Below, one piece after another: positions 39,795 through 58,552 of a DNA stretch of 64,000 bases. The notes under the pieces were generated by a model that was not told the origin of the DNA, did not search any database, and worked only from the letters and a program-made list of their open reading frames with translations. Position numbers and translations under genes: made by a program. The number at the start of each line of letters is the position of its first letter. Position 1 is the first letter of the stretch. Source of the DNA: Candidatus Schekmanbacteria bacterium (lineage in GTDB: Bacteria > CSSED10-310 > JACPHN01); NCBI GenBank assembly GCA_016188575.1, contig JACPHN010000225.1:1-64000 (forward strand), in the 5' to 3' direction.

Positions 39795-39816
39795 GCGGGC
39801 GCGCGTCAGCGCCCGC
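39795..39816. terminator. Hairpin between convergent genes
   Basis: GCGGGCGC/GCGCCCGC 8-bp perfect stem with a 6-base loop, between the FHA gene end (39772) and the last codons of the sirtuin gene (ends 39806). No T-run. Confidence 0.45.
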
Positions 39817-40621
39817 GCTGCCGGCGCCATGCCGCGAGCAGGTGCGGCATCGTGCGGGTAAAAGGACCCGGGAGAAAAAGGTCGGACGAGAGATCCGCCG
39901 CCGGCTCCAGATTCATCTCGACGATCCGGCCGCCGCAGGCTCGCACTGTCTGCGGAATGGCCGCCGCAGGGTAGACCTCGCAGCTCGTCCCGATCACGAG
40001 CACGAGGTCTGCCCCCGCCAGGAGCCGATCCGTGTCTCTGAGCGCGGGCGCTGGGATCAGCTCGTCGAAAAACACTACGTCCGGCTTCAAGACCGCAGCA
40101 CAGCGTGCACGCGGCGAACCGGCCGTACACCGCGGCGGCACGGTCATCGACGCGACTTGCTCGCGGGCATAGCAGGCGCCGCAACTCAGACATGTGAATG
40201 TCCGGTGGGAGCCATGAAACTCTACGACCACGCTACTGCCAGCCTGCTGGTGCAGTCCGTCAACGTTCTGTGTGACGATGCCGGCTATTCCCCCCTCCGC
40301 TTCGAGCGCCGCCAGAGCGCGATGGCCGGCGTTTGGCTCTGCCCGCAGCACTTCCTCGAGGGCAACCAGCATCGTCCACACCTTTTCCGGGTTCTTCCGG
40401 AACGCCCCGATCGTGGCGTACTCTTGGGGATCGAAGCGCGCCCACAAACCCGTCGCGCTGCGAAAGTCCGGGATACCACTCTCCGTGCTTACCCCGGCCC
40501 CGGTCACCGCAATCGCCTTGCCCGCCTCCACGAGCCAGGCCGCGGCAAGCTTCGTGGCGGAATCGAAAATACTCCAAATCCTCTCTGTGCTCCCGCTGCC
40601 GGTGCGGGAATCGCAATGCAC
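39806..40621 (-). CDS. Sir2-family NAD-dependent protein deacylase
   Basis: About 271 residues if the GTG at 40621 is used. No ATG occurs near the domain start; an ATT at about 40579 or 40570, preceded by AGAGAGG, is also possible, and the ATG at 40798 would overlap the divergent neighbour. Rossmann motifs: AIAVTGAGVSTESGIPDFRS (NAD binding), TQNVDGLHQQAG, EFHGSHRTFTC with the catalytic His, IGTSCEVYPAA. The zinc site has a normal first pair (CLSC) but the second pair is C-x8-C (PPRCTAGSPRARC) instead of C-x2-4-C. Lysine deacetylation or deacylation is expected. Convergent with the FHA gene, divergent from the dimethylargininase gene. Confidence 0.87.
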   Translation of the reverse strand: MHCDSRTGSGSTERIWSIFDSATKLAAAWLVEAGKAIAVTGAGVSTESGIPDFRSATGLWARFDPQEYATIGAFRKNPEKVWTMLVALEEVLRAEPNAGHRALAALEAEGGIAGIVTQNVDGLHQQAGSSVVVEFHGSHRTFTCLSCGACYAREQVASMTVPPRCTAGSPRARCAAVLKPDVVFFDELIPAPALRDTDRLLAGADLVLVIGTSCEVYPAAAIPQTVRACGGRIVEMNLEPAADLSSDLFLPGPFTRTMPHLLAAWRRQRGR

Positions 40622-40678
40622 GCAGTTCTGCGTTAGTATACGCGGAAGCTGCAAACTCAGGCAACGGGAATCTCCGCC

Positions 40679-41464
40679 ATGATCTCTTCGCCGGTTCCTG
40701 GTCGGCGAGCGCTGGTGCGCGCCGTGCCAGGCTCGTTTACGTGCGCCTTGCAGTCGCGGCCGACCGCGTTGAACCCCGAGCTGGCTCGATCCCAGCACGC
40801 GACCTACGTGGCCGCGCTGGAGGGCGCCGGCTATCGCGTCACGCTCCTCGCAGCGGACGAGTCCTGTCCAGACTGCTGCTTTATCGAAGACACCGCGGTA
40901 ATTCTCGACGGCGTGACGCTGATCACACGCCCCGGCGCGCCATCGCGGTTACCCGAAACACCGGCCGTCGCTGCCGCGCTTTCGCAGGAACAGCCCGTGG
41001 TCTACATGCAAGCCCCCGCGACCATGGATGGCGGGGACGTCCTGCGGGTCGGGCGGTGGCTGTTTGCCGGGCGCACCGCGCGCACGAATGCAGCCGGCAT
41101 CGACAGACTTTCGGCCGTCGCCGCCGAGGTTGGGCTCGAGGTCGTGCCCGTTGCGGTGGCAGGCGCCTTACACCTCAAGTCACTATGCACGCTGGCGGCC
41201 CCCGAGCTCATCGTCGCTGTCGCGCATCGCATTGACCTCGCCACCTTTCGGGCGCGAGGGTTGCGCGTGCTCGAAACGGATGAGCTGGCGGGGGGCAATG
41301 TGCTGGCGCTCGGCGAGGTGACCCTGGTTTCCGCGGACAGCCCGCTCACGGCGAGCGCGCTGGCGGCCGACGGAGTGAGCGTCCGCAGCATCGCCATCAG
41401 CGAGTTTCACCGGGCTGATGGGGCGCTCACGTGCCTGAGCCTGCGATTCGGTGCACCCGGGTAG
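40679..41464 (+). CDS. NG,NG-dimethylarginine dimethylaminohydrolase-type amidinotransferase
   Basis: 261 residues of the pentein superfamily. It has the family's acidic substrate residues FIED (E70, D71) and the DGGD block at 117-120. The catalytic His is in ALHLKSLC (H165) and the nucleophilic Cys near the C-terminus is in GALTCLSLRF (C252). Size and motif order fit DDAH (releasing citrulline and dimethylamine from methylated arginines) better than arginine deiminase, which is longer. The gene stands alone, and a promoter of a later gene lies just beyond its end. Confidence 0.9.
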   Translation: MISSPVPGRRALVRAVPGSFTCALQSRPTALNPELARSQHATYVAALEGAGYRVTLLAADESCPDCCFIEDTAVILDGVTLITRPGAPSRLPETPAVAAALSQEQPVVYMQAPATMDGGDVLRVGRWLFAGRTARTNAAGIDRLSAVAAEVGLEVVPVAVAGALHLKSLCTLAAPELIVAVAHRIDLATFRARGLRVLETDELAGGNVLALGEVTLVSADSPLTASALAADGVSVRSIAISEFHRADGALTCLSLRFGAPG

Positions 41465-42197: not shown

Positions 42198-44642
42198 ATG
42201 GACATCCGGCGCCTGCTGTGGAGAGGTCTTGGTGGTCTGATGCCCGCGATCCGGCACCGGCCATTGCGCGGCGAGATCACGGTGCGAGGCCTGCGGCGCG
42301 CGGCTACGGCGCAGATCGACGAGCACGGCGTGGCCCACATTTCGGCCGACAACGACCGGGATCTACACTTTGCCGCGGGCTTTGTGTGTGCCCACGATCG
42401 GCTGTTCCAGCTCGAGCTCTGGCGGCGCTACTTCGCCGGACGACTCGCGGAGACTTTTGGTGAGCTGCAGGTCCCGACCACGCTCGGAACGTTCGGCGGG
42501 GGCTTTCGGCTGTCCTCGGTCGACCACCTTCACCGCCTGCTGGGTTTTCGCGAGTGGGCGCGGGCCTCGCTCAGCGCGTGCGCCGAGGAGGTTCAGGTCG
42601 CGCTCGAAGCCAGCGCCGCAGGAATCAACGCCTACCTGGATACGGCTCGGTCGCGGCTGCCGATCGAGCTTCGCGTGCTCGGACTGTCGCCGGAGCAGTT
42701 TTCCGCCGTCGACCTCATGATGTACTTGAAAGGCATGGCCTTCGCGCTGAACGTTTCGTGGCGCGCGACCATCGCCAACGGACGGCTCCAGGCGGCGCTC
42801 GGCGCCGGGGGCGACCACCTCGACCAGCGGCGCATGAATGAGCTGTTGCTTTCGAGCTCGGGAGCGGACGCGATGGGCGTCACCGGCGGGGCCGGCACTG
42901 AGGTGCTCGGCAGCCTCGGAGCGCTACTGGACGCCGCCGCCAAGCTCCGTGGCGGCGCGGGAGGAGCGGGCGGCAGCAACGCCTGGGTCATTTCCGGCGC
43001 ACACACCGCCAGCGGCGCTCCCTTGCTCGCCAATGACACTCATCTGAATCTGCTGACGCCTGCCGCAGTCTGGGAAGTCGCGCTGTCCACGCCTGGGCAC
43101 CATGTGGCCGGCGGTGCGCTGCCGGGCACGGGGCTGGTGCTGATCGGGCGCAATCAGCAAGTTGCGTGGGGAATGACACTGGGCATGGCTCACGACACCG
43201 ATCTGTATTGGGAGCAGCTCCGCGGGCCTGACCGCGTGGAGGACGCTTGCGGCGAGACCGCGATCTCATGCCGAGGACGAGCCGACTGGGAGCGCGTCAC
43301 GGTTACGCCCTGCGAGATCGCTGTCCGCGGCAGCAAGACAAAGCGAATCACCTTGCGATCGACTCCCCGCGGTCCCCTGATCTCCGATGCCGTGACCTCC
43401 CGCGCGACCTCGCTAGCGCTCTCGATGCGCTGGACTGGGATGGCCGCGACCCCCGACGCCGACGCCATTTATCGCCTCAACCGCGCAGCAACGGTGCAGC
43501 AAGCGTGCCAGGCCGCCAGTTTGGTTGCGTGTCCGGCGTTGAGCTTCGTTTTCGCTACGAAGGCGGGCGAGATTGGTTACCAGCTTGCCGGGCTGTTTCC
43601 CGTCCGCCGCGGCGGCGCCGCGATCCTGCCCCGCGCCGCCTGGGATCCCGATGGTGAGTGGACGGGCTTCGTTCCCTTCGGCAGCCTGCCCGCGGCCACC
43701 AATCCGGCCGAGGGTTTCATCGTGAGCGCCAACGACGCCCTCGCCAGGAACGACTCGCCGCACACGCTCGCCGCATTCTACGACCCTCCACACCGAGCGC
43801 GCCGCATTCGGGACGTCATCGTTGGGCGCATCCGGAGGGCAACAAAGCTCCGCGCTTCGGACTGCGCCGCGTTGCAGGTCGATGATCTGTCGCTTCAGGC
43901 ACAGGTGCTCGTGGAGAAAGTCCTCAAGCCGGTGTGCCACCGCTTGACGCTGCCCGCGTCCGGTGCAGCGCGCTGGATGCTCGCCGAGATGCTCGCCTGG
44001 GACTTTCGCGCCAGCTCTTCCTCGCGCCCCGCCGCGATTTTTCACGTCTTCTATCAGTGCCTGCTGTGGCGTGGGCTGCGAGCTCGGCTAGGCGACGAGC
44101 TGTTCCGACAGCTCTTCGAGGTCGCCAACAGCCGTTCGTTCGTGGTCGAGAATCTGCTGATCTCCTCCGACTCGGCCTGGTTCGGAGGCAGCGCCGAGAA
44201 GGCCAGGCTCATCAGTGTGGCCCTGGCCGATGCCGAGTCCGAGCTGGACGTGCTGCTCGGGCCGGACCCCTCGCGCTGGACGTGGGGGCGGCTGCACCGC
44301 TCTTCATTCCCGCACGCTCTCGGCAAGCTCCCGATAGTTGGACGACTGTTCGGGATTTCGCCATTCCCCGCAGGCGGCTCGCCGATGACCGTAAACCAGC
44401 ACGCCTACAGTTTCGGCTCGCCTTTTGCCACAGGCGTCGGCCCGGCATTCCGGCATATTGCCGATCTGGCGTCGCCCGAGGTAGGTGGAACGGCCGTGCC
44501 TCCTGGAAACTGTGGAAATCCGGCGTCTGCGCACGCGACAGACCAGGTGGCGTTGTGGCGGGAAGGCCGCCTGAAGCGACATCCGTTCGCTTCTCCGTCC
44601 CGTCTTGCGGCCACCGTGCGACTTCTCCCGCCGCCGCGCTGA
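42198..44642 (+). CDS. Penicillin acylase-family Ntn hydrolase
   Basis: 814 residues with the alpha-spacer-beta plan of the penicillin/cephalosporin/AHL acylase family. N-terminal IDEHGVAHISADNDRDLHFAAGF and AHDRLFQLEL belong to the alpha subunit. The autocatalytic site is GGSNAWVISG, with S260 becoming the N-terminal nucleophile of the beta subunit, then LLANDTHLNLL. GLVLIGRNQQVAWGMT and VNQHAYSFGSPF support the family. There is no clear signal peptide (the start MDIRRLLWRGLGG is short and weakly hydrophobic), unlike periplasmic acylases. Substrates in the family include acylated beta-lactams, homoserine lactones and lipopeptides; none can be chosen here. Confidence 0.9.
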   Translation: MDIRRLLWRGLGGLMPAIRHRPLRGEITVRGLRRAATAQIDEHGVAHISADNDRDLHFAAGFVCAHDRLFQLELWRRYFAGRLAETFGELQVPTTLGTFGGGFRLSSVDHLHRLLGFREWARASLSACAEEVQVALEASAAGINAYLDTARSRLPIELRVLGLSPEQFSAVDLMMYLKGMAFALNVSWRATIANGRLQAALGAGGDHLDQRRMNELLLSSSGADAMGVTGGAGTEVLGSLGALLDAAAKLRGGAGGAGGSNAWVISGAHTASGAPLLANDTHLNLLTPAAVWEVALSTPGHHVAGGALPGTGLVLIGRNQQVAWGMTLGMAHDTDLYWEQLRGPDRVEDACGETAISCRGRADWERVTVTPCEIAVRGSKTKRITLRSTPRGPLISDAVTSRATSLALSMRWTGMAATPDADAIYRLNRAATVQQACQAASLVACPALSFVFATKAGEIGYQLAGLFPVRRGGAAILPRAAWDPDGEWTGFVPFGSLPAATNPAEGFIVSANDALARNDSPHTLAAFYDPPHRARRIRDVIVGRIRRATKLRASDCAALQVDDLSLQAQVLVEKVLKPVCHRLTLPASGAARWMLAEMLAWDFRASSSSRPAAIFHVFYQCLLWRGLRARLGDELFRQLFEVANSRSFVVENLLISSDSAWFGGSAEKARLISVALADAESELDVLLGPDPSRWTWGRLHRSSFPHALGKLPIVGRLFGISPFPAGGSPMTVNQHAYSFGSPFATGVGPAFRHIADLASPEVGGTAVPPGNCGNPASAHATDQVALWREGRLKRHPFASPSRLAATVRLLPPPR

Positions 44643-44890: not shown

Positions 44891-47800
44891 ATGAAGATGC
44901 GCTCCCTCCTGATCTTATGGGAACCTCGCGCCATCTGCAGAATTGCGATGCTTGGCTTCGCCATCCTCGAGCTCGCGCCGGCACCGTTCGCGGCAGCATC
45001 GCGATTCATCTTCGCCCCGGCGCCTCCGGCCACTGTGGAGCCACAGGAGGTCCCCGCCACCGGACTTCACGAAGCGATCGTGACGGTCTCGACCTTTGGC
45101 CGCTACAGCATCGCAGCCGACAGCTCGCAGGGCGTGTCGCTGCGGCTCGTCGACAAGATGGCGGGTCCCGGCGCGACCGCGGGGATTCCCGGAGAGGAAA
45201 ACGGGAGGTTGGACGTGTTTCTCGACCGGGGCCAGCACAAACTGATCGTCCAGGGCCACGAAAAGGCAACGGGCACGGCGCGAATCGCGGTCCACACGTT
45301 CACGGAATCCAATGGCCCGATGCCTCCTCGGATCGTCGATTTGCGCCTGGAGCAAACGGCACTGCGCGATTTCGAACAGCGATCGTACTGGCTCGATGTG
45401 GCGACCGAGGGCCGCGTCATTCTCGAGGCAGCGGGCCGAAGTCTCGCCGACCTTCGCATTCTCCAAGATGGCAGTTGGCTCGTCGACGCCGAGCCGGCAA
45501 TTGAGCTGATCGAACCGACCAGCGGCCAACCGCTCCGCCGTTGCCAGCTCACAACGGTCCTCGTGCCCGGAATCTACCTGATCTCGGCATTTGGCGGTCC
45601 GCCACTCCCGTGGGCCGCGGGCAGCAAGGAGCAGCCGTTCTATCTGCGATCGGGGATTCCCCACCTCCCGGAGGCCGGCCGGCAGTGGCGCGAGCTCAGC
45701 CCCTTTGGCACCGATCGCTTCGTGCTGCCGAAAAGTACGACCTTTTTCCGCCTCGAGCTGCCGGAAGCCATTCCGGCGCAAATGTATGTGACAGGATATA
45801 GCGAGGCCGCACCCTTCCGCGCCGGCGATGACTACGTCGAGATTACCAAGAAGTCCGTGCCACCGGTAGCGGAAAAGGACTGGAACGTCGCGAGCGAAGA
45901 CGGCGAAGGTGAAGGTGAAGGCGACGGTGAAGGCGAAGGTGAAGGTGAGGGTGAAGGCGAAGGCGAAGCGGGCGAGTCGGGAGAGTCTGCGAGCTCGGAG
46001 CTGACGGAGAAGCTTGTAACCGTCGCGGCACACGCGGGCGACAAGTACATCTTCCAGCACTTCCGCAGCGTCGATCATTACCCGCTCGAGAAGTCTGGAA
46101 CCTACTGGATCTCCTCGGCGCATAGCGGCGCGGCGGAGGACAGGGCGGACGTGACCGGGCTGACGGTTCGGTATCGCCTCAACCAGACTGAGCGGTTCGA
46201 GGTGCTCCCCGAGCTTTCGCAGGTCATCGAGCTGTCGGGTGCTCAACGGTACGCGCGCCGTTTCAACGCGCTCGGGGACGTGCAGCTCTTCCTGCACATC
46301 GCCGAGGCCGGCAAGTACGAGGTCCTGCTGCAAGGCACGCGGTGTCGGGCGAGGATCGAGCCGTTCATGGTCACGATGCCCAATGACTACCAGGCGCCCG
46401 AAGACGAGGACAGCGAGTTCGTTTGGGATCTGCCGGAGGGTTACTTTGTCCTGACAGTCGTGCCCGTTCAGCAGGGCGTGGTCGACGTCGCCATTGTTCC
46501 CCGACTCGCGGAGGGCCCCATAGCTCCCGACGTGTTCACGCCGGCACAACCGAGGCTGGCGTGCTTGCAGATCCCGGAAGCGCGGCTGGCCGCGGACCCG
46601 AACGATGTGTACACGCTGTACCTCAACGAACAGCCGGACGTGAGGAGCGGCCTGGTGCTCCGCCCGGCTCCGCCCAGTGCCGGCGGCGGCCTGCCGGCGC
46701 AGGTTATCGCCGGCGAAACGGCACGGTTGAAGGTATCCGCGAGCGGCCCGAGCGTCGTCTCTGCGGTGGCGGAAGATGGATCCCGCGTTCCCGTTTCCGT
46801 GGACGGCGTCGAGTTCAAGGAGACTGCGCGGGTGACCGGTGGGACCTTTGAGCTGCAGATCCGCAACGACGGCGCGGCGACGATTGTCGTCAGCGTGCAG
46901 GCGCCGGCCGAAGAAACGCTCTCGGAAACCCCGTTTCCGGCGGTTAGTGAGGGGTTTCTGCAGCGTCTCCCCAAATTCGCGCAGCTTGGCGACGGCGCCC
47001 AGATCTTTTTCGATCTGGCCCGTGCGGAGCGGCGGACCTTCGAGCTGACCGTGAACGAGCCGGCGCTCTACACCGTAAGCTCGACCGGCCTACTCGCGAC
47101 GGAAGGAAACCTGCGCACGCGCGCCGTGCCCTCCATCGTGCGCGACAAGGAGAACGGCGCCGGCCGCAACTTCATGATCGGCCAGTACTTGCGCGAAGGA
47201 GAGTATCAGCTCACCGTAAGCACCGTCGGCAGCAGCGCAGGTCATCTCGGTCTGGGGCTGCGAAAGGTGCCCATGCTCGAAGAAGGGCGGCTCTTGCCGG
47301 ACTCGCCCGCCCGAGTAACGGTGCCGGCGGGCGCTGCCGCACGTTATGACGTCGTGATCGCGGAGTCGGGAACCTACGCAATTGAATCTGTGGGACAGGA
47401 TACGACCCTCAGATGTCGATTCGAGGATGATCAGGGCTGGCCGCTCGTGGCACCGGACGCGCTGGCGAATTTCCAGCTCGCATTGAAGGCGGGCACCTAT
47501 CGGCTCGTGCTCGTCCCGTCGGCGGTGGAAACCCGGCGGCTCACCCGTGTCAGGCGCATCGCAGCTCCCGTAGAAACGGACGGACACGGGCCGTTCGAGC
47601 TGGCACTGGGAATGACATATCGAAACCTGTGGCGTGAACCGGAAGGGGATGGCGCGGACAGAGCACCGGACGTCTGGCGCTTCGATCTGCCCGCCGCTGC
47701 CAGTGTTCGCTTCGAGCTCACCGGAGAAATGACGGGCGCGATTTTCAGGGATGGAGTCAGGGTCGCGGACGTGCCGGGTGCCGGCCCCAAGTCCGAACCC

Positions 47801-50326
47801 GTGCTCCTGGAGGCCGGTGCGCATGAGATTCGGCTCACCAATGCGCGCCGCAACAACCGGGTTCGCTACGCGCTTTCGGTGCGCTCGGACGAGCTCCTGG
47901 CCGGGCAAAGCCGGGCCGTGACCGAGGCGACCGATATTCCGATCTCGGTCGGCCAGGCCGGTCTGGTCGAGCTTTCCTCCTTTGGTCAAAAGGACGTGGC
48001 AGCCACCCTGTTGTCCGAAGCCGGTAGCGAGCTCGCAAGATCCGACGACAGACCCAACGACTGGAACTTCTACCTCGCCAGAAATCTCGAGCCGGGGCGA
48101 TACACGCTCCGCGCGTACGGCGTGGGCACCAATGAGGTGAGCACGCTCGTCACCATGGCAATGCCACCAGAGCGAGCAGCGGCGGCTGAGGAGCTGCCGA
48201 TCAGCAAGACGATTGCTCCACAGCGTGAGGTGCACCTGTTCGCAGTGCCGGCGCCTGGCGCCGAGAGTCTACTGATTGTGCGCGGGACCTCAGATGAATC
48301 GTTCGGGCTTGCCGTCGAGGGGCGAACGGCGGGTTCGTGGACCACCATTGCAAGCACGACCGGAAAAGCGCCGGAGCTCTTCGTGCCATTGGCGCCGTCC
48401 CGCCCCGAGCAGGCATGGGAGTATCGCGTCAGGGTGTGGTCAGTGGACCACCGCGGCGGCGCGATTCGACTCGACGTGGCCAGTCCGCAAGTACGGGCCG
48501 GGCGCGAGGCGGACCTTGCAGCCGGGGTCGAGCTAGAGCTCTTGCCCGCCCCGGTAGGCGACATCGGGGCGATCGCAGTCGACGTGGATCGGCCAGGTCT
48601 GTTCGTCAGTCCCGGGGGCACCGGCGACGCGATTCTCTGGGTTGCCTCGCTGGCGAATACCGCGGCGACACGCGCGGACCGTGGCGCGTTCGCGGCGAGA
48701 TCGGGGCGGTTATGGATCGTTTCGGGGCGCGAGAATCAACCCCGCACAGCCAGGGTGCGCGCCGCTCGAAAGCAACTGGTCTCGGGTGAAGACAGCGCGG
48801 TGAATGTCCCCCTCGCTGGCGTTACCCCCACGGCCGCAGATCTCGTCGCGACGCCAGGACGGCCCATTGTGGTCATCGCGGAGACGCAGGCAGGACAGCC
48901 CGCGATCGCGCTTGGCGCCGACGCCACCACGGGTAGCGCCGGCGCCGGCCGCCGCATGGCGGTCGCCGACCGCAAAGCGCTCGCTGTCGACCTCGATGCC
49001 GGCGCACCTTTCGCAGCGGTGTGGGAGGGAGACGTCGCCGCCCCCGCGAAACAGGCACGGCTCTGGCAACTCTCCCTGCCGGCGCCAACGCGCCAACAAG
49101 CCAACTGGGGTCCGCGCCAGGACATCGTGCCAGCCGAAACGGCAGTGGCGCTGGCGCTCCCTTCGGGGCACAAGACGGTCGAGCTCGCCCTCGCGCAGTC
49201 TCTGGCGGCGGTCGTAGCCGTGGGGCCGCGCGTCGAAGAAGTGCTCTGGGCCGGCGATGGCGCCTACCAGACGACCCTACAGACCTCGGCGGACGTGCTC
49301 ACCTTGCTCAACCCGACAAGGAGCCCGGCGCGCTACGCCATCAGCGTGCTCGCGACCGACGACAGCTCGCCGGCAAGAAGCGTCAGTCCCGACGCACCGT
49401 TCGAGGCCTTCCTGGCGCACGCTGGAAAACTGCGGCTGCGCGTCACCGGAATCGACCAGGACGCCGCTGCCAACGCGGTGCCGCACTGGCGACTGCGGTT
49501 CGCGGGTGAGGTCTCCGGCGGCTTCCTGATTGGCGACTCCGGGTCAACTCACAGCGGCGAGTCGGTGCTCCCCGCCTCGGAGGACGGCACCGCGGAGATC
49601 ACGCACGGGGCCGGCCTCGTGACGTGCTGGCTCGAACCCGTCAGCGGCGAGATGTCGACAGCCGGATGGCCGGCCAGCTTCACGGCCACGGCCGAAAACG
49701 TCGCGCTCCCGGCAGCGATCACGCTGAGCGGCGCGTCGCGGCTCTTCCGCATTGCTACAGCGCGTGCCACGACGCTCCACGTGCGCGCCGCCTCGCCAAC
49801 GGTAACGCGGCTCACGGTGAACGGCCGCGAGCTCTCGCCGGAGCTGCATCGCGAACGCACGTCACTCGACCTGGTCGTGCCCGCCGGCACGGCCGAAATC
49901 GCCGTGCGCGGGGTGGCCAATCAGGCGCTGCAGGGCCAGATGACGTTGGTCGAGACGGAGATCCAGGACCTCAGCGAAGGGTTGGGTCCAGAAACGCTGA
50001 TTCCCTCAGGGGCTGGGGTTGCCTTTCGCTTCACGGTGGGCACGAATGGGCCCGTCGGCATCGGCGTGCGCGCCGACGCGGATGACGTCCGTTGCGAATT
50101 GTTCACTGCCGGCGCCGTCCGTGTCGGCGGCGGCATCGTCCAGCGGCATGACCTCGCCGCCGGAACCTACTACATGGTCGTCCGCGTAGCCGACGCAAGC
50201 CAACCCGTTCGCCTTCAGCCTGCGGTCGTGGGGCTGCAGCTCCCGGATACCGGGCCTCCTGCCGAGGTGGTACAGCAGTTTCTCGAGCTCGAACGGCAGG
50301 AGCGCGGAAAGATGGTGACCCAATGA
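44891..50326 (+). CDS. Giant secreted protein of unknown family, partner of alpha-2-macroglobulin
   Basis: 1811 residues. The N-terminus has a hydrophobic segment (CRIAMLGFAILELAPAPFAAAS) fitting a signal peptide; a second ATG two codons in is possible. I recognise no catalytic domain. The sequence consists of many all-beta stretches of 100-150 residues with recurring 'Y-xV-x-GTYxLxV/AGTYRLVLVP' and 'AAASVRFELTGE' patterns, similar in style to pre-peptidase-type and Ig-like sandwiches. A tract of alternating Glu-Gly (about residues 337-360) interrupts them. The last codons overlap the ATG of the A2M gene (ATGA), so the two are translationally coupled. By position it should be a periplasmic partner, substrate guard or scaffold of the A2M-PBP1C pair. 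Function is not known to me. Confidence 0.75.
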   Translation: MKMRSLLILWEPRAICRIAMLGFAILELAPAPFAAASRFIFAPAPPATVEPQEVPATGLHEAIVTVSTFGRYSIAADSSQGVSLRLVDKMAGPGATAGIPGEENGRLDVFLDRGQHKLIVQGHEKATGTARIAVHTFTESNGPMPPRIVDLRLEQTALRDFEQRSYWLDVATEGRVILEAAGRSLADLRILQDGSWLVDAEPAIELIEPTSGQPLRRCQLTTVLVPGIYLISAFGGPPLPWAAGSKEQPFYLRSGIPHLPEAGRQWRELSPFGTDRFVLPKSTTFFRLELPEAIPAQMYVTGYSEAAPFRAGDDYVEITKKSVPPVAEKDWNVASEDGEGEGEGDGEGEGEGEGEGEGEAGESGESASSELTEKLVTVAAHAGDKYIFQHFRSVDHYPLEKSGTYWISSAHSGAAEDRADVTGLTVRYRLNQTERFEVLPELSQVIELSGAQRYARRFNALGDVQLFLHIAEAGKYEVLLQGTRCRARIEPFMVTMPNDYQAPEDEDSEFVWDLPEGYFVLTVVPVQQGVVDVAIVPRLAEGPIAPDVFTPAQPRLACLQIPEARLAADPNDVYTLYLNEQPDVRSGLVLRPAPPSAGGGLPAQVIAGETARLKVSASGPSVVSAVAEDGSRVPVSVDGVEFKETARVTGGTFELQIRNDGAATIVVSVQAPAEETLSETPFPAVSEGFLQRLPKFAQLGDGAQIFFDLARAERRTFELTVNEPALYTVSSTGLLATEGNLRTRAVPSIVRDKENGAGRNFMIGQYLREGEYQLTVSTVGSSAGHLGLGLRKVPMLEEGRLLPDSPARVTVPAGAAARYDVVIAESGTYAIESVGQDTTLRCRFEDDQGWPLVAPDALANFQLALKAGTYRLVLVPSAVETRRLTRVRRIAAPVETDGHGPFELALGMTYRNLWREPEGDGADRAPDVWRFDLPAAASVRFELTGEMTGAIFRDGVRVADVPGAGPKSEPVLLEAGAHEIRLTNARRNNRVRYALSVRSDELLAGQSRAVTEATDIPISVGQAGLVELSSFGQKDVAATLLSEAGSELARSDDRPNDWNFYLARNLEPGRYTLRAYGVGTNEVSTLVTMAMPPERAAAAEELPISKTIAPQREVHLFAVPAPGAESLLIVRGTSDESFGLAVEGRTAGSWTTIASTTGKAPELFVPLAPSRPEQAWEYRVRVWSVDHRGGAIRLDVASPQVRAGREADLAAGVELELLPAPVGDIGAIAVDVDRPGLFVSPGGTGDAILWVASLANTAATRADRGAFAARSGRLWIVSGRENQPRTARVRAARKQLVSGEDSAVNVPLAGVTPTAADLVATPGRPIVVIAETQAGQPAIALGADATTGSAGAGRRMAVADRKALAVDLDAGAPFAAVWEGDVAAPAKQARLWQLSLPAPTRQQANWGPRQDIVPAETAVALALPSGHKTVELALAQSLAAVVAVGPRVEEVLWAGDGAYQTTLQTSADVLTLLNPTRSPARYAISVLATDDSSPARSVSPDAPFEAFLAHAGKLRLRVTGIDQDAAANAVPHWRLRFAGEVSGGFLIGDSGSTHSGESVLPASEDGTAEITHGAGLVTCWLEPVSGEMSTAGWPASFTATAENVALPAAITLSGASRLFRIATARATTLHVRAASPTVTRLTVNGRELSPELHRERTSLDLVVPAGTAEIAVRGVANQALQGQMTLVETEIQDLSEGLGPETLIPSGAGVAFRFTVGTNGPVGIGVRADADDVRCELFTAGAVRVGGGIVQRHDLAAGTYYMVVRVADASQPVRLQPAVVGLQLPDTGPPAEVVQQFLELERQERGKMVTQ
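45900..45969 (+). repeat. In-frame GGTGAAGGCGAA short tandem repeat
   Basis: About eleven GAAGGT/GAAGGC hexamers encode alternating Glu-Gly in the giant secreted protein. All units are multiples of six bases, so length changes keep the frame. Confidence 0.85.
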
Positions 50327-53300
50327 AAGCAACTTTCGTGTGCTCGCTCTTCCAACTGATGCGCGGGTCCACGTGGCTCGGCGCGATGGCGCTCGCGGCC
50401 GCGCTCGCCACAACGCCGCCACGGGTTCCTGCGGCGCCGCCCGCCACGGACCTGCACGTGCAGTCGGCGCCCAGTCGCCCCGTCGCTGGAGGTGCCGGAC
50501 CAACCGTTGTGCCCAATCACTTCCTGCGCCGGTGGGATCCGGTGACTATCTTTTTCGATACGCCGCGGGGTCCCGCGGCGGCCGCACCTGAGGACCATCC
50601 AGAACGAATCGTCCGCTTTCTTCCCGAGCACGCCGGCGCCTTTTCCTGGCTCGACAGCACCACGTTGCAGTTTCGCCCCGCGGAGCCGTGGCCGTCATTG
50701 ACCACTTTCAAGTGGCAGGTAGACGGCAAGACCACCGAGCTTGCGACCCTGGTCGCCGCGCCGACGCGCACGATTCCCGCGCGCGACGCTACGGACCTGG
50801 ACCCCGTAGAGGCCATCACCTTGCAGTTCCCTGAACCCGTCGAACCAGCGGTGCTCGCGGCAATGGTCACCATCCAGGTTCGGGCTCCCCGCGACGGCGC
50901 GGGCCAATCACAGCTCATTACCAAAGACGACTACGAGCTCAAGGTGCTCGAGCGACCATCTCGCGCCGCCGAGGCGGTATACGTGCTCCAGCTTCGGCAG
51001 CCGATACCGTTCGGCCGGGAGGCAACGATTTCCATACGCCTTGCCGCGGATGATTCGGCGCCCGGATCTTCTTTGACCTACTCCTTCTCCACCGCTGAGC
51101 CGTTCCGCGTTGCCAATGTCGGCTGCTTGCAGGCCCGTGTTCCGATCAGCCCTGCGGGAAGCCGATTCACCCCGGAACAAATGCTTCAGTGCACTGGCGA
51201 GCGCACCGTGTCCGTGGAGCTCACCGCGGCGCCGGGCGCTGTCGGTGCCGTCGAAGGGCGAAGCCTGATTGGGTTCTCCCCTGCCGTCGCCGGCCTCGCC
51301 TATGCCGTTGAGGGAAAAACGCTGCGGATCTCCGGGCAGTTTGCGGCCGAGCAGCAATACCGGGTCACCGTCAATCCGACGCCAATGCAGGACGCCAAGG
51401 GTCGCCCCCTTGAGCTTCAGGCAAGCAGCGAGCTCTATCTCAATTTTCGCCGCATGCCCGACTTTCTCCGCTGGACGCGCGGTGAGGCCATTGTCGAACG
51501 CCTGGGCCCGCAAATGGTCCCGATTGAAGGCAGAGGAGCGGAGCGGGTCGATCTGCGGATTTACCCTATTGATCCTGTCGATCCCTCGTTCTGGCCATTC
51601 CCGCGCGACGCGGTGACCGTCGACGAAAGCGTTCGGCCTGCAGGGCCGGGAGAGGAGCAGGCCGCCCCCATAGCCCCGAAACACTACCTATACGAGGGTG
51701 ATCTGGCAAGACAGTTGCCGCGGCTTGGTTCGCCGCCCTACTCCAACATCGTGTCCCTGCCGCTGAAAAAAGACGGTACCGCGGCCTCCTTTGGCCTTGA
51801 TCTCGCCGCGCCGCTTGCCCAGGTGCACGGCAAGGGAGCGCCCGGCACCTACCTCGTCGGCATCAGACCGCTTGATGGCACGAGTTTGCGCTCCTGGGTC
51901 CGCGTCCAGGCCACGGACTTGAGCCTCTCCACCGCGGAAGAGTGGGGTGCCGTCAAGCTCGTCGTGACCTCGCTCGCTTCTGCGGCGCCGGTGCCCGGCG
52001 CGCGAATTCGCGTCGAAGGCATGGATCCGCGCGGCCACTGGCTGCTCACCTGGGAGGGAACGACCAACGAGAGCGGCATCGTCACGTGGTCGCCGCCGGG
52101 GAGCACGCGCAACACCGTGCGACGCATCTCCGTGCGCAAGGGCGCAGATGCGCTGGTGCTCAATCCCAATACCGCACCCGACGAGTATCGCGACAACCTG
52201 TGGAGTGACAGCTCCGGTATCTGGCTGCAGTGGACCCAGTACGAGCTGAGCTCCCGCGCTCCGCGGGCCGAACAGGTCTGCCACATCTTCACGGAACGGC
52301 CCGTATATCGGCCTGACGAGCCCGTACACGTCAAGGGTTACGTCCGCGATCGTTACCAGGGCGCGCTATCAATAGGCGCCACCGCCGGGAAGCTCGTGGT
52401 CGAGGGGCCCGGGGAGCTCACCTGGACGTACCCAATCGCGCACGCGACAACGGGAAACTTCTATCATCGATTCGAGGAACCGGATCTACCGAGTGGAAGT
52501 TACCTGGCGGCATTCGAAAACCGGGGCGGAAACCGCATCTGCAGCGTCAGCTTCAAGAAGGAGGCGTATCGACTTCCGACCTTCGAGGTTCGCCTCCACA
52601 GTCCAGATACCGTTCCATTGGACAAGCCCTTCGACGTCGCGCTGACCGCTGGCTACTATTCGGGTGGCAGCGCGGCCGAGCTTCCCGTCCAGTGGCGGGT
52701 CACGCAGTTTCCGTTCACCTGGCAACCGAAGGAGCGAAAAGGATTTCAGTTTTCCTCCGACGCCAGGTATGGCTCGGACGGTACCGAGCCGTCGTCTGCC
52801 CAGCTCGACAGCAGTGGGGTAACGGATGGCAAGGGCGGTGCCGCGATTACCATAGATCCGACCAGCGAGCCGACCGCGGAGCCGCGAAGCTATGTCATCG
52901 AGGCCACCGTCACAGGGGCAGACGAGCAGACCGTGACGAGCACCCGCCGCGTGGTGGCGCTCCCCGCACTGACGCTCGGCGTGAAGGTTCCTCGCTACCT
53001 GGAGAAGGCCGCGGAAATCTCGCCGGAAGTCATCGCGGTGGGCGCTGACGATCAGTTGCTCACCGGCGAGCCGATCACGGTCAGGCTCTACCAGCGCCAG
53101 TGGCATTCACACTTGCAGGCGAGCGATTTCTCTGACGGCGTCGCCCGCTACGTGACCGATGTCGTCGAGGAGAAGATGATCGAGACCACCGTCGCTTCGG
53201 GAGCGGCCCCCGTCAGCGTGCCGCTCGCAATTTCGGAGGCCGGCGTCTACGTCGTAGAGCTTGAGGCACGCGACCGCCTCGGTCGGGCTCAGGCAGTCAA

Positions 53301-56148
53301 GGTGGATCTGTTCGCGGGAGGCGAGCAGGCGGTGGCGTGGTCGAAGCCGACGAGCAAGGTGTTCGCCGTCGCCCAGGACAAGCCGAGTTACAACCCCGGC
53401 GACGAGGCCGTCCTGGTTCTGCAGAGCCCGTACCAGCAGGCGGAAGCCTTGGCGATCCTGGAGGCTCCGGACGGTAATCGCTACGAGTGGCTTGCGGTCA
53501 GAGGCGGCACGGCCAGCTATCGGCTCAAGGTCTTGCCCGCATACGTGCCCAGAGTGCCGGTGCACTTCGTGCTGATGAGGCCGCGAATCGCAGGCACGCA
53601 GCCGCAGGCGGGAAACGGAGTCGATCTGGGCAAACCGGCAACCATGGCGGCGACATCGTGGGTGAGGACCAATCCGGTCGAGTACACGGTGAAAGTGGAG
53701 CTGGCGCACCCCCAGCGCGCTCGACCCGGCGACGAGATCGAAGTCGGGATTTCCCTCAGCGATCCGCGGGGCCAGCCACGGCCCGGCGAAGTCACGCTGT
53801 GGCTCGTCGATCAGGCCGTGTTGGCGCTCGGCAAGGAGCGAGAGCTCGATCCCGTCAGCGATTTCATCACGCCGGTAGAGACGCGCCTCGCAGTCCACGA
53901 TACCCGGAACATGGCAGTCGGTCTGTTGCCATTCGCCGAGAAACCCGGCGGGGACGAGGGTGAGGACGAGGCCGGCCTGCTCGACGGCGCCTCGCTTCGG
54001 CGAAAGTTTGAGCCCGTGCCGTTTTACGATCCCGCGATCGCCGTCGGGCCGGATGGCAAGAAGACGGTCTGGGTACGCCTTCCGGACAACGTCACGGTGT
54101 TCAAGATCAGAGCCAAGGCAGCGACCGGCGCCGACCGGTTCGGTTTCGCCACGGGTCAGCTTGCCGTGCGTTTGCCAATTGTGGCTCAGCCGGCTCTCCC
54201 GCGTTTCGTGCGCCCTGGGGACAGCTTCATCGCGCGCGCTTTCGGGCGCATCGTTGAGGGGGATTCCGGCGCGACGACCAGTGCGATTCGGATTGAAGGC
54301 CCCGGAACCAAGGCTGAGGACACCCGAGAGGTTTCCTTGCAGCAGGGGATTGCCACGGCAGTGGACGTGCCGGTCAAAGTCGCGCCTCCCGGCGCCGGAG
54401 TGCCCGGGCTCCTGACCGTCAAGGCGGCGTTCGAGCGCAAGTCGGACCGCGCCCGCGATGGCTTCGAGGTGACCCTGCCCATCGTGGATGATCGCCGTCC
54501 GGTGCGCATCCGCGAGATGATCGATCTGGCCCCCGGCGAACCTCACGAAATCCCGCGGATTGCCGAAGCGGTCCGCCCCGGAACCGTCGCGCGCCGGCTC
54601 CTGGTCTCGGACCAGCCCGCGGTCCTGCGTATGGCGGCGGCGCTCGATTTCCTGCACGAGTACCCATACGGCTGCACCGAGCAGCGGATCAGCAAGGCGA
54701 GAGCGCGTCTCGCGCTGAGAAAGCTCCGAGACCTCATCGCTGAGGAAGATGCAAATGAGGTGCTGGAAAAAACGGTCGCCGATACCCAGGAATGGATCGC
54801 CGGCACCGTGGACGACGCGGGTCTCTGCGCTTACTGGCCGGGAGGACGCGGCTATGTGTCGCTCAGCGCCTGGGCGCTGCAGTTCCTGGTGGAGGCGCGG
54901 GCAGCGGGCCTTCCCGTCGACACCGGCCTGTTCGACACGCTGACGCGGTCGCTGACGGCTGCGCTCCGTTCAGACTACACGCGCTTTGTCGGCGGGGAAT
55001 CGTATGCCGAGCGAGTCTGGGCGCTTGCCGCCTTGAACGCCGCGGGAAGGGCGCAACCAGCCTATGCCGCCGAGCTCGCGCGAAGAACCCAGTATCTCAA
55101 CTTGGAGAGCCTGGCGCAGGTCGTCGTTGCGCTGCAGGGCGGAGCGGAACCCGCCGCGGCAGATGTGGTTGCGGCGCTGGTCGATGAGATGTGGAAGGAC
55201 GTCGTGTTGCGGCTGCATCAAGGGAAACAGATTTTTGGCGGCCTGCAGGGTCGGCGCGGCGCGGCAAGCGACTTCCTTCTTGCGAGCGAAACCCGCTCGC
55301 TTGCGGAGATGATCCGCGCCTTGCACCGCATCGGCCGCACTGACGAGCGCTTTGACGCGTTGCTGCAGGGGCTGGTGACGCTCGGCCAGGAAACGGGGTG
55401 GGGCACCACCAACGCCAACGCGGCCGCGCTCCTCGCGCTTTCTGAGGTCTTCACCCCAAGACCGTTCGCAGGACCCGCGGCCAGGATTTTGGCTGCTTTC
55501 GGCGCCGATCAAAAGGAGGCCGTGATCTCCCCTGAGAGCCCGGTTGCCAGGCTGCACAGCGACAACGGCGATGCAGGAAAGGTCACCGCTGTTGCCGGAA
55601 CCGGACCCAGTATGCTGGTGGCGCGTCTGGACACGTCCTACGTGCCGGCGCAGCCGGCAGCCGAAATGGATCCCAAGGAGCAGGGGTTCGTGGTGTCCCG
55701 GGAGAGCAACCGGGTTGTCGACGCAAGGGCGCCCCTGGAGAAAACTCCGATCGCCAAGGGTGGCACCCGGCTGGCCCTGGCCATGGGGACGATGGTCGAG
55801 GAGCACGTGCAGGTGGTCAATCCGCAGGAACGGCATTTTGTCGCGATCGTCGTGCCTCTGGCCGCGGGGCTCGAAGCGCTGAATCCGGGCCTGGAGACGG
55901 CGCCCCCGGAGGCGAAACCGAGCGGCCGGAACACGGTGGAGCCGACGTACGTCTCGATAATGGACGACCACGTCGGGTTTTATTTCGATACGCTGGCCGC
56001 GGGAACGTACGACTTTTACTTCCGAGCGAGGGCGACGGCCGAAGGGACGTTTTCGCAACCTCCGGCGCGCGCCGAAATGATGTATGACGAGGCGGTGTGG
56101 GGGCAATCGGCGGGGGCTCTTGTCGCCGTTCAACCCGTCAAGCAGTAG
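50323..56148 (+). CDS. Bacterial alpha-2-macroglobulin with thioester
   Basis: 1941 residues. An N-terminal hydrophobic segment (STWLGAMALAAALATTPP) is the signal or anchor, with no lipobox, unlike E. coli YfhM. MG domains follow: FFDTPRGP and QFPEPVEP early; ERPVYRPDEPVHVKGYVRD is the strongly conserved MG2 block; PRYLEKAAEISPEVIAVG; NVTVFKIRAKA and LPRFVRPGDSFIARA come before the complement-like domain. The thioester motif is present: YPYGCTEQR with C1451 and Q1454, followed by the alpha/alpha toroid (GYVSLSAWALQFLVEA). It should trap attacking proteases in the periplasm by covalent bonding. Starts 4 bases inside the upstream gene and ends overlapping PBP1C, an A2M-pbpC pairing known from proteobacteria. 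Confidence 0.95.
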   Translation: MKATFVCSLFQLMRGSTWLGAMALAAALATTPPRVPAAPPATDLHVQSAPSRPVAGGAGPTVVPNHFLRRWDPVTIFFDTPRGPAAAAPEDHPERIVRFLPEHAGAFSWLDSTTLQFRPAEPWPSLTTFKWQVDGKTTELATLVAAPTRTIPARDATDLDPVEAITLQFPEPVEPAVLAAMVTIQVRAPRDGAGQSQLITKDDYELKVLERPSRAAEAVYVLQLRQPIPFGREATISIRLAADDSAPGSSLTYSFSTAEPFRVANVGCLQARVPISPAGSRFTPEQMLQCTGERTVSVELTAAPGAVGAVEGRSLIGFSPAVAGLAYAVEGKTLRISGQFAAEQQYRVTVNPTPMQDAKGRPLELQASSELYLNFRRMPDFLRWTRGEAIVERLGPQMVPIEGRGAERVDLRIYPIDPVDPSFWPFPRDAVTVDESVRPAGPGEEQAAPIAPKHYLYEGDLARQLPRLGSPPYSNIVSLPLKKDGTAASFGLDLAAPLAQVHGKGAPGTYLVGIRPLDGTSLRSWVRVQATDLSLSTAEEWGAVKLVVTSLASAAPVPGARIRVEGMDPRGHWLLTWEGTTNESGIVTWSPPGSTRNTVRRISVRKGADALVLNPNTAPDEYRDNLWSDSSGIWLQWTQYELSSRAPRAEQVCHIFTERPVYRPDEPVHVKGYVRDRYQGALSIGATAGKLVVEGPGELTWTYPIAHATTGNFYHRFEEPDLPSGSYLAAFENRGGNRICSVSFKKEAYRLPTFEVRLHSPDTVPLDKPFDVALTAGYYSGGSAAELPVQWRVTQFPFTWQPKERKGFQFSSDARYGSDGTEPSSAQLDSSGVTDGKGGAAITIDPTSEPTAEPRSYVIEATVTGADEQTVTSTRRVVALPALTLGVKVPRYLEKAAEISPEVIAVGADDQLLTGEPITVRLYQRQWHSHLQASDFSDGVARYVTDVVEEKMIETTVASGAAPVSVPLAISEAGVYVVELEARDRLGRAQAVKVDLFAGGEQAVAWSKPTSKVFAVAQDKPSYNPGDEAVLVLQSPYQQAEALAILEAPDGNRYEWLAVRGGTASYRLKVLPAYVPRVPVHFVLMRPRIAGTQPQAGNGVDLGKPATMAATSWVRTNPVEYTVKVELAHPQRARPGDEIEVGISLSDPRGQPRPGEVTLWLVDQAVLALGKERELDPVSDFITPVETRLAVHDTRNMAVGLLPFAEKPGGDEGEDEAGLLDGASLRRKFEPVPFYDPAIAVGPDGKKTVWVRLPDNVTVFKIRAKAATGADRFGFATGQLAVRLPIVAQPALPRFVRPGDSFIARAFGRIVEGDSGATTSAIRIEGPGTKAEDTREVSLQQGIATAVDVPVKVAPPGAGVPGLLTVKAAFERKSDRARDGFEVTLPIVDDRRPVRIREMIDLAPGEPHEIPRIAEAVRPGTVARRLLVSDQPAVLRMAAALDFLHEYPYGCTEQRISKARARLALRKLRDLIAEEDANEVLEKTVADTQEWIAGTVDDAGLCAYWPGGRGYVSLSAWALQFLVEARAAGLPVDTGLFDTLTRSLTAALRSDYTRFVGGESYAERVWALAALNAAGRAQPAYAAELARRTQYLNLESLAQVVVALQGGAEPAAADVVAALVDEMWKDVVLRLHQGKQIFGGLQGRRGAASDFLLASETRSLAEMIRALHRIGRTDERFDALLQGLVTLGQETGWGTTNANAAALLALSEVFTPRPFAGPAARILAAFGADQKEAVISPESPVARLHSDNGDAGKVTAVAGTGPSMLVARLDTSYVPAQPAAEMDPKEQGFVVSRESNRVVDARAPLEKTPIAKGGTRLALAMGTMVEEHVQVVNPQERHFVAIVVPLAAGLEALNPGLETAPPEAKPSGRNTVEPTYVSIMDDHVGFYFDTLAAGTYDFYFRARATAEGTFSQPPARAEMMYDEAVWGQSAGALVAVQPVKQ

Positions 56149-58552
56149 CGAATCGGAAGCTGCGCGGCCGGCGCCCCGAAGCGCCCGCCGCGCCGGCCTC
56201 CTGCGGGCGACAGGTGTCGTCGCCGGGACGCTGCTGGCACTGGTCGCTGCGGCGCTGCTGTGGTGTGCGCGGCTGGTGGCGCCGGCGCCGACACCGCTGC
56301 TCATGGCATTCGGCGGGGAGGCTCTGGCGCTCGCCGCCGGCGATGCTGATGCCGATGCCGATGCCGAGCTCGGCTACTGGCCCACCGCACCGTTGCCCGG
56401 CCGGGTTGCGGCCGCTACGGTGGCCGTTGAGGACCGCCGATTCTACCAACACCCCGGCGTGGATCCGATCGCTGTCGTGCGCGCCTTCTTTCAGAATCTT
56501 GAGGGGCGGCGGAGGATTTCCGGCGCCTCTACAATTGCCATGCAGGTCGCCCGCATGCAGCGAGGCGGACGGCGCACGTACGGGGCCAAGATCGCGGAAG
56601 CATTGCAGGCGCTGGCACTGACGGCCAGGTTCGGCCGCGATCGCGTGCTCGAGCACTACCTGCGAATCGCGCCGTATGGGAACCGGATTCGCGGTGTCGG
56701 CCTGGCCGCGCGCATCTATTTTCAAAAGCCCGTCGCCGACCTGAGCTGGGCAGAGACGGCGTTTCTTGCCGCTCTCCCACAGGCCCCGACGACCATGAAT
56801 CCCTATGATGCCGTAGGGCAGACGCGGGCAAAAACCCGGGCACGGCGTATCCTTCACCTCCTCGGTGAGCGCGGCGCGGTAGGCGGGAGCGAGCTCCGAC
56901 TCGCTCTCGATCAGCTCGACTTCCTGCGCGTCCATTCCTTTCCTCGGCGGCCAGAGATCACCCTGCATGCCGTGCTGCGGATGCAACAGGAGCTCTCGGC
57001 CCCGGAGCTCGCCGCATCGGTCTGGCATGATCCGGTGGTTCGCACCAGCATTGATCTCGATCTTCAGGAGTACGTGCAACAGGTGGCCGCCCAGGCGCTC
57101 GACGGGTGGACTCGGCTCGGCGCGGGCAATGTGGCCGTCCTGGTAGTCGAGGCACCGAGCGGCGAGATTCGCGCCTGGCTCGGTTCGGCGGCATACGGCC
57201 GGGCGAGCAAAGGTGGCGCCATCGACTTTACCGGCGTGCCCAGAGGTTCCGGGAGTACGCTGAAGCCGTTTCTTTATGGGTACGCGTTGGACTCGGGAGC
57301 GATCGCTCCAAACACGGTGCTCGACGATTTGCAGCGCGGCGCCGGCGGCATCGGCAACGCGGACGAACGATTTCTGGGTCCGCTGATGCCCCGCGTGGCC
57401 CTGGCGAGCTCCCGTAACGTGCCGGCGGCGCATCTCCTCGCGAAAATTGGAGTGGACACGGGAGCCGACTACCTCCACCGGCTCGGCCTCGGTTCCGCAG
57501 GGGACACCGGCGAGCGCTACGGACTGGGCCTTGCTGTCGGGGGGTTTCCCGTCACGCTTTACCAGCTCGCCCGGGCCTATCAGGCGCTGGCGCGTGACGG
57601 CATGCTGGGCGATCTGGTGCTTTTCCCTGGCCGCCAGAAGCCGGTGGCCAGGCGGGTGCTCTCAGCCGGCACCGCGCGCCTGATCACGCTGTTTCTGTCG
57701 AGCGACCAGGCGCGCCTGCCCACCTTTCCGCGCAAGGGGGCGACAGAATTCCCGTTCGCGGTGGCGGTGAAGACCGGGACCACATCCAACTACCATGATG
57801 CGTGGACGGTCGCGTATTCGAAGCGCTACCTGGTTGCCGCATGGGCGGGGCATCCGGATCACCGTCCCATGAACCGTCTGAGCGGCTCCCGCTCAGCCGC
57901 CCGGCTCGTGTCCCAGATCCTCCGCCATCTCCACAAGGGTGAGCTCGACGGCCTTTCCGAGTCGTCTTTCCCATCGCCCGAGGGGTACCGTGCGGCGGAA
58001 ATCTGTGCGCTGTCCGGCAAGCTCCGGACCAACGCGTGTGAGCGGACGTTCGTCGAGTGGTTTGCTCCCGGAAAGGAGCCTACCGAAGCGTGCCCCATTC
58101 ACGTCAGGCTCGCCGTTGACCCAGTCATGCGCGCCGGCGATGAGACGACGGTGGCACAACGCACGTTTTATGACCTCCCGGCGCGCTACGCGGCATGGGC
58201 GGCGGCTTCCCACCTTCCGGCGCCACCGGAGCCGCGTGATCTCGCCGCGCCTGGGGCCAGACAGAGCACGGCGAGCGGGCGTGCCGGCGCGATTTCCATT
58301 ACCAGCCCGGTGGCAGGTCAGCACGTCTTGCGCGACCCGGAAGCGCCTCCGGAGCTGTCTACCATCGAGCTCCGAGCGACCGTTCCCCGGTCCGTGCCCG
58401 CGGTCGTCTGGTACGTGGACGGTGAAGCGTATCGCACTTCCGCGGCGCCCTATGGCGTGCGGTGGAAGCTGCGGCCGGGAGCTCACACCGTGCAGGTGCG
58501 GGCTCCAAGCATCGCGCAGGAGTCGCGTCCGGTGCGGATTACCGTCGATTGA
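56084..58552 (+). CDS. pbpC: Penicillin-binding protein 1C
   Basis: 822 residues if translated from the ATG inside the A2M gene (65-base overlap); a later start is possible because residues 1-30 are polar and Ser-rich. One membrane helix (about 38-62). Glycosyltransferase domain GT51: VEDRRFYQHPGVDP (E116, D117), RRISGASTIAMQVARM, FLAALPQAPT. Transpeptidase domain: SxxK at S391-T-L-K394, SxN at S443-R-N, KTGT at 563-566. The C-terminal domain from about 730 is the BiPBP_C beta domain typical of PBP1C. With A2M it forms the wall-repair/protease-defence pair known from proteobacteria. A DADADADAE tract follows the membrane helix. Confidence 0.95.
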   Translation: MTRRCGGNRRGLLSPFNPSSSSESEAARPAPRSARRAGLLRATGVVAGTLLALVAAALLWCARLVAPAPTPLLMAFGGEALALAAGDADADADAELGYWPTAPLPGRVAAATVAVEDRRFYQHPGVDPIAVVRAFFQNLEGRRRISGASTIAMQVARMQRGGRRTYGAKIAEALQALALTARFGRDRVLEHYLRIAPYGNRIRGVGLAARIYFQKPVADLSWAETAFLAALPQAPTTMNPYDAVGQTRAKTRARRILHLLGERGAVGGSELRLALDQLDFLRVHSFPRRPEITLHAVLRMQQELSAPELAASVWHDPVVRTSIDLDLQEYVQQVAAQALDGWTRLGAGNVAVLVVEAPSGEIRAWLGSAAYGRASKGGAIDFTGVPRGSGSTLKPFLYGYALDSGAIAPNTVLDDLQRGAGGIGNADERFLGPLMPRVALASSRNVPAAHLLAKIGVDTGADYLHRLGLGSAGDTGERYGLGLAVGGFPVTLYQLARAYQALARDGMLGDLVLFPGRQKPVARRVLSAGTARLITLFLSSDQARLPTFPRKGATEFPFAVAVKTGTTSNYHDAWTVAYSKRYLVAAWAGHPDHRPMNRLSGSRSAARLVSQILRHLHKGELDGLSESSFPSPEGYRAAEICALSGKLRTNACERTFVEWFAPGKEPTEACPIHVRLAVDPVMRAGDETTVAQRTFYDLPARYAAWAAASHLPAPPEPRDLAAPGARQSTASGRAGAISITSPVAGQHVLRDPEAPPELSTIELRATVPRSVPAVVWYVDGEAYRTSAAPYGVRWKLRPGAHTVQVRAPSIAQESRPVRITVD

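Follow-up and report, generated by a model that had tools for sequence, protein, structure and literature searches.

What bacterial A2M-PBP1C pairs, cousins of complement and A2M, actually do is so far only hypothesized. In the stretch of DNA analyzed here (the window, 64,000 nucleotides), such a pair is preceded by a gene for a giant exported protein, referred to as the partner, and the question that this locus raises is whether the partner is a dedicated third component of the system, as the original prediction had proposed. An obligatory, larger third component changes what must be purified, deleted and modeled. The data point to a three-gene unit that extends the known A2M-pbpC system instead of founding a new one; the unit itself is well supported, and its biochemistry is inferred.

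Gene organization of the locus

The partner, A2M and PBP1C open reading frames lie head to tail on the plus strand and overlap one another, spanning 44891-58552, and the coordinates assigned to them in the original prediction were borne out (Table 1). The expected ATGA, common to the end of the partner and the start of A2M, is found at 50323-50326. The claimed 65-base overlap between A2M, which ends at 56148, and pbpC holds with the first pbpC ATG at 56084 but not with an alternative in-frame TTG at 56120, which has GGGGG upstream and reduces the overlap to 29 bases; its length therefore depends on the pbpC start chosen. The genome to which the window belongs (9.2 Mb) has a single partner copy.

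A penicillin amidase family protein (573.8 bits) is encoded at 42198-44642, on the same strand and directly upstream of the partner, and this gene does not recur beside the partner at other loci. On the minus strand, a caspase-like (Peptidase_C14) protein with DUF4384 is found at 62099-63676, about 3.5 kb downstream of pbpC, and a SIR2 family protein, overlapped by other open frames, lies near the cluster at 39806-40798.

Table 1. Features of the three-gene locus, in window coordinates
Feature	Position	Strand	Description
Partner gene	44891..50326	+	1811 aa, exported, about 16 predicted tandem PPC/CBD-fold beta-sandwich domains, conserved C-terminal helix
Probable Sec signal peptide of partner	44891..44995	+	Residues 1-35, ...PFAAA|SR, no lipobox; read from the translation
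Glu-Gly tract of partner	45893..45973	+	Residues ~335-361, disordered, lineage-specific insertion
D6 of partner	46958..47266	+	Residues 690-792, best-supported PPC/CBD-fold domain
D8 of partner	47564..47887	+	Residues 892-999, PPC/CBD-fold domain
D16 of partner	49943..50230	+	Residues 1685-1780, PPC/CBD-fold domain
Conserved C-terminal helix of partner	50261..50314	+	Residues 1791-1808; from AF2 DSSP and the C-tails of 25 homologues
A2M	50323..56148	+	1941 aa, thioester type, signal peptide without lipobox
Thioester motif GCTEQ of A2M	54670..54684	+	Residues 1450-1454
PBP1C (pbpC)	56084..58552	+	822 aa, one TM segment, Transgly + Transpeptidase + BiPBP_C

Fold and conservation of the partner protein

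The partner stays below the cut-off of every Pfam and NCBIfam family and has no convincing sequence relative in the PDB; the earlier statement that it has no nameable domain is thus valid for sequence families, but not for the fold. The AlphaFold2 models of its two halves (residues 36-910, 14 homologues, pLDDT 85.7; residues 890-1811, 12 homologues, pLDDT 80.7) are all beta, with the exception of the disordered Glu-Gly tract and the C-terminal helix, and for both halves the top Foldseek matches are the tandem collagen-binding/PPC domains of clostridial collagenase. Superposition on the PPC/CBD fold over an entire domain was achieved with VIA at three places: D6 on the ColG CBD 1nqj (Z 13.6, 92 of 96 residues, 1.8 A) and the PPC domain 5sv5 (Z 13.0), D8 on the ColG CBD 1nqd (Z 11.9, 98 residues, 2.1 A), and D16 on 5sv5 (Z 11.9, 94 residues, 1.9 A). 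Profile comparison detects internal repeats (D6-D9, HH 93%; D7-D16, HH 89%; D4-D7 and D9-D16). Because AlphaFold2, Foldseek, VIA-align and these repeats agree, the partner can now be named, on model evidence, as a tandem array of about 16 PPC/CBD-like jelly rolls, which accounts for the repeated beta-sandwich patterns noticed originally; the division into about 16 domains comes from the strand pattern, and only some domains were superposed individually. At the sequence level, weak PPC matches at D8 are present in 5 of 12 homologues, and the PF04151 (PPC) scores (13.3-15.0 bits) are far under the Pfam gathering score of 25.9. Thus, the likeness to the PPC/collagen-binding domains resides in the fold of at least three domains, and the partner further differs from them in its arrangement, since these domains usually occur on a protease, one to three at a time, whereas the partner would be a free array of about 16.

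Several other identities were considered. The partner is not another A2M (HH probability 0.3, no Pfam A2M domain, no CxEQ), and the Foldseek rows for A2M, C3 and C5 were discounted (probability <=0.75, rmsd >30 A); neither does it resolve into a polysaccharide lyase or any other Pfam family, none being found above cut-off. Resolution into a known family, one of the two outcomes that would have refuted the original prediction, thus failed to appear. A TrAA12 Pfam match (15.5 bits) is compositional and sits on the Glu-Gly tract, as do ribosomal S10, fractalkine and similar sequence matches in the PDB. The viral fold search returned generic jelly rolls only, and a phage origin was rejected, the partner being in no phage record. 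The CAGE complex (PMC12485934) is likewise a giant exported bacterial protein with beta-sandwich domains, but it mixes in helical domains, encloses a cavity and has no A2M operon described, in contrast to the all-beta partner with its single C-terminal helix, and this identification was also rejected. In the open literature searched, no description of a third gene with A2M-pbpC was found, although an earlier mention in Budd et al. 2004 is not excluded, and the partner protein appears to be undescribed.

Conservation among homologues is highest in D1, D2, D6, D9 and D16 and lowest in D10-D15. A helix motif (PPxxVxRxYL / VPEEYLRDFF) is conserved in the last 20-30 residues, and the C-terminal helix is a candidate docking segment, for which there are no binding data. 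The Glu-Gly tract is present, as had been noted, but no conserved role can be assigned to it: its pLDDT is below 50 and nearly all homologues lack it. These observations bear on the possibility that the partner is a sacrificial decoy or a protease sensor whose cleavage feeds or activates A2M. Its size, its secretion and its fast divergence (25% vs 41% identity) would suit such a role, as would the acidic disordered tracts of some members of the family; however, its N-terminal half and its final domain show good conservation and fold well, the Glu-Gly tract lacks conservation, and a bait region already exists in A2M. A decoy or sensor is considered very unlikely, and no evidence points to the partner as a bait, a role that had been suggested for it.

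The A2M and PBP1C proteins

The A2M of the window is related to E. coli YfhM (HH 99.9%) and shows bMG10, BRD, A2M and MG2 above the Pfam cut-off, with bMG3, bMG5 and bMG6 below theirs. It meets the features of type I bacterial A2Ms in its CxEQ motif, its domains above cut-off and its adjacent pbpC; a lipobox, typical of type I although not strictly defining, is absent from it and from nearly all members of its clade. In the E. coli yfhM-pbpC type I pair (PMC4498604, PMC5764988), an A2M of the same family, also of the thioester type, is likewise followed by PBP1C and both are exported; the differences are that E. coli has two genes and an A2M with a lipobox (LAGC), whereas the window has the large third gene and a lipobox-less A2M. 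No partner accompanies yfhM-pbpC; the gene ahead of it is sseA, in the opposite orientation. The PBP1C of the window has the GT51, transpeptidase and BiPBP_C domains expected of this family and the STLK, SRN and KTG motifs, and its top family match, TIGR02073, falls slightly short of the equivalog cut-off (469.6 bits; cut-off 494.2).

Co-occurrence and linkage of the three genes

Homologues of the partner occur in Acidobacteriota, Myxococcota, Eisenbacteria, Proteobacteria and the window's own phylum, with a median identity of about 25% across phyla. A pattern scan of genome contigs, which ignored A2M presence, recovered 11 relatives, from "Deltaproteobacteria", Eisenbacteria, Gammaproteobacteria, Rhodospirillaceae, Acidobacteriota, Vicinamibacteria, Myxococcota and one unclassified bacterium. 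By alignment search with the N-terminal half, the partner was found in 11 of 297 Acidobacteriota, 47 of 193 Myxococcota and 4 of 274 Gammaproteobacteria, in 1 of 47 genomes of the phylum of the Eisenbacteria MAG and in 3 of 148 of that of the "Deltaproteobacteria" MAG; a single-protein search gave 5 of 98 genomes, the window's own included, all of its phylum. The 68 partner-bearing genomes checked (the window's and 4 of its phylum, 10 behind the loci, 8 more Acidobacteriota and 45 others) all encode an A2M belonging to one and the same clade. In every testable genome (61/61) A2M lies directly downstream of the partner, sharing its contig and strand, and the same holds for the seven plasmids described below (7/7); in the remaining seven genomes (G104, G107, G775, G837, G875, G887, G911) the partner reaches the contig end or stops <=80 bases from it. 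The recurrent neighborhood anticipated for a dedicated third gene in an extended three-component system is thus found across phyla, no testable homologue being located away from A2M, so that the other refuting outcome also failed to appear and the core of the original prediction is supported.

Only the partner, A2M and pbpC recur in these neighborhoods. No fourth conserved neighbor was found, a GGDEF/EAL gene upstream in three loci being unrelated. The four-base overlap between partner and A2M is present in 17 of 23 loci across phyla and, because this overlap recurs and the order of the two genes is kept across phyla at about 25% identity, the three-gene arrangement, as judged from the sequences, is not a product of chance. 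The distances of the partner correlate with those of A2M (0.98) and of PBP1C (0.90), which fits co-descent and is not by itself proof of binding. Where enough sequence is available, pbpC follows A2M in 22 of 24 loci; it is missing in two (L020/L073 and L045/L074), and for this reason PBP1C is less tightly bound to the unit than the partner.

Loci L073 and L074 (genomes G105 and G129) are partner-A2M pairs with no pbpC in the next 6 and 18 kb, respectively, and at L060 (G736) pbpC lies 1.8-2.3 kb behind A2M without touching it. An apparent A2M-PBP1C fusion in some myxobacteria (frames of 2424-4329 aa) was rejected as read-through upstream of A2M in high-GC DNA; in these organisms pbpC is a separate open reading frame.

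The converse test, in which the window A2M was searched in 297 Acidobacteriota genomes only, separated two classes, one of 12 genomes with scores >=1390 bits and another of about 138 genomes with scores <=285 bits. All 12 high-scoring A2Ms have the partner, although in G234 only its C-terminal half fits before the contig start. By contrast, 20 loci of second-class A2Ms (16 from Acidobacteriota, 4 from Myxococcota) lack the partner, with pbpC right behind A2M in 13 of them, and in some genomes (G857, G903) the three-gene unit coexists with a classical A2M-pbpC pair. In a maximum-likelihood tree, a branch of SH-aLRT 100 separates all 28 partner-type A2Ms from the others; this tree is a quick search in which some non-partner rows are long, and the gap in bit scores is concordant with it.

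A three-gene cassette on Rhizobium plasmids

The partner is also encoded on seven closed Rhizobium plasmids, the only ones in the whole plasmid collection, followed in each by an "MG2 domain-containing protein" and a "transglycosylase domain-containing protein" or unannotated equivalents. Plasmids with different surroundings share DNA homology of 85-89% over about 14.0 kb, from ~30-70 bases before the partner to ~0-20 bases after pbpC. The flanking DNA of the CIAT894 and R. acidisoli cassettes matches 61 and 122 Rhizobium-group plasmid records, respectively, with matches that reach to ~180 bases ahead of the partner on one side and to 12-32 bases past the end of pbpC on the other, and in CIAT894 the downstream flank of the R. 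acidisoli cassette is found elsewhere, without the cassette. Since homology is flush with the genes, the flanks are unrelated and flank DNA exists without the cassette, the three genes behave as the minimal transferred unit. In many bacteria the known two-gene "trap and repair" pair is a portable three-gene unit, a conclusion well supported by comparison of sequences.

This transfer weighs on the possibility that the partner acts independently, as a surface adhesin or a structural protein of the cell wall merely co-transcribed with A2M-pbpC. Adhesion is often mediated by PPC/CBD folds, and interaction data that could contradict this possibility are absent; nevertheless, an independent protein would hardly be expected to keep to a single A2M clade, one-to-one, throughout 68 genomes from several phyla, to be missing from classical A2M-pbpC pairs even within the same genome (G857, G903) and to move in Rhizobium in an exact three-gene transfer, and this explanation is regarded as unlikely.

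Possible function of the three-gene unit

The best explanation overall, to which about an even chance of being correct is given, is a transferable three-gene envelope unit in which an obligatory partner holds a non-lipidated A2M at the wall. The three proteins would form one functional unit of the Gram-negative cell envelope, the partner being required by a single clade of bacterial A2Ms, which lacks a lipid anchor. Exported to the periplasm as a long string of PPC-fold beta-sandwich domains, the partner would bind the soluble A2M, stabilize it and position it at the peptidoglycan or inner-membrane face near PBP1C; A2M would then trap invading proteases and PBP1C would rebuild the damaged wall. 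The partner would be to A2M what the lipid tail is to E. coli YfhM, or MagB to MagD. This placing role is an inference drawn from the absence of a lipobox in nearly all A2Ms of the clade and from P. aeruginosa MagD, which also has no lipobox and was found by experiment to depend on MagB, encoded in the same operon, for its stability and its place at the membrane (PMC5764988). The P. aeruginosa Mag operon and the E. coli yfa cluster (type II) resemble the window in combining a lipobox-less A2M with dedicated exported partners, but they comprise six smaller genes, without CxEQ or pbpC, whereas the window A2M has CxEQ; YfaA and YfaT, the only Mag/Yfa partners compared, show no homology to the partner (HH 0.1%).

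What the sequences and models establish is the co-occurrence, order and joint transfer of the genes, the fold of the partner and its lack of A2M homology, the missing lipobox and the LprI fusion described below. Against this explanation, there is no experiment on binding, location or phenotype, so that a scaffold role for the partner is plausible but unproven, its location and any direct binding being likewise inferred. No membrane anchor is predicted in the partner and, unlike MagB, it offers no explanation of a membrane location; co-transfer and vertical descent suffice for the distance correlation. Finally, the thioester Cys is lost in the Rhizobium A2Ms (GSTEQ or GPTEQ), which retain a partner with LprI, indicating that A2M chemistry varies; the A2Ms of L062 and L071 are likewise without CxEQ, with the partner retained.

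A possible link to lysozyme inhibitors

In Alphaproteobacteria the partner is fused at its N-terminus to an LprI domain (PF07007; 41.5 bits in the Rhodospirillaceae isolate of L016 and 38-44 bits in Rhizobium, cut-off 22). The Pfam search found no such domain in the window partner, and most homologues lack it. In addition, PliG, a periplasmic lysozyme inhibitor, shares the jelly-roll fold of the partner and is among its structural neighbors (Z 11.1, D6 against 4dzg, and 9.4), with no PliG sequence similarity found. The LprI domain and the PliG-like fold suggest a link to wall-lytic enzymes, LprI being here no more than a family label, without inhibition data. The partner could accordingly be envisaged as mainly an inhibitor array, in which PPC-like and LprI domains inhibit muramidases or other enzymes that degrade the wall, with A2M acting against proteases and PBP1C in charge of repair. 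Such a division of labor is consistent with the logic of the A2M-pbpC hypothesis (PMC5764988, PMC4498604), and the fusion and the shared fold speak for it; but the PPC fold is generic, binding collagen, sugars or peptides, PliG ranks under the collagenase domains, and LprI, missing in most homologues, is here a family name without any test, which leaves this reading rather doubtful. Under the preferred explanation, in which the partner positions A2M, the lysozyme-inhibitor domain would be an addition in some lineages, bringing an anti-muramidase function that is likewise inferred. A broader formulation, a portable envelope immune system, found across phyla and carried as a cassette on plasmids, of A2M, PBP1C and a giant multi-domain protein of an undescribed family that either inhibits wall-lytic enzymes or brings the other two together in one complex, is put forward only tentatively and falls short of being probable.

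The LprI fusion is a tangible clue, open to testing, that the unit acts against wall-lytic enzymes besides proteases, and the cassette in cultured Rhizobium offers a natural gain/loss comparison in tractable hosts. On plasmid pRSpC104a of Rhizobium sp. C104 (L097:12488-26466), all three genes are fragmented and apparently decayed; on related plasmids they are intact.
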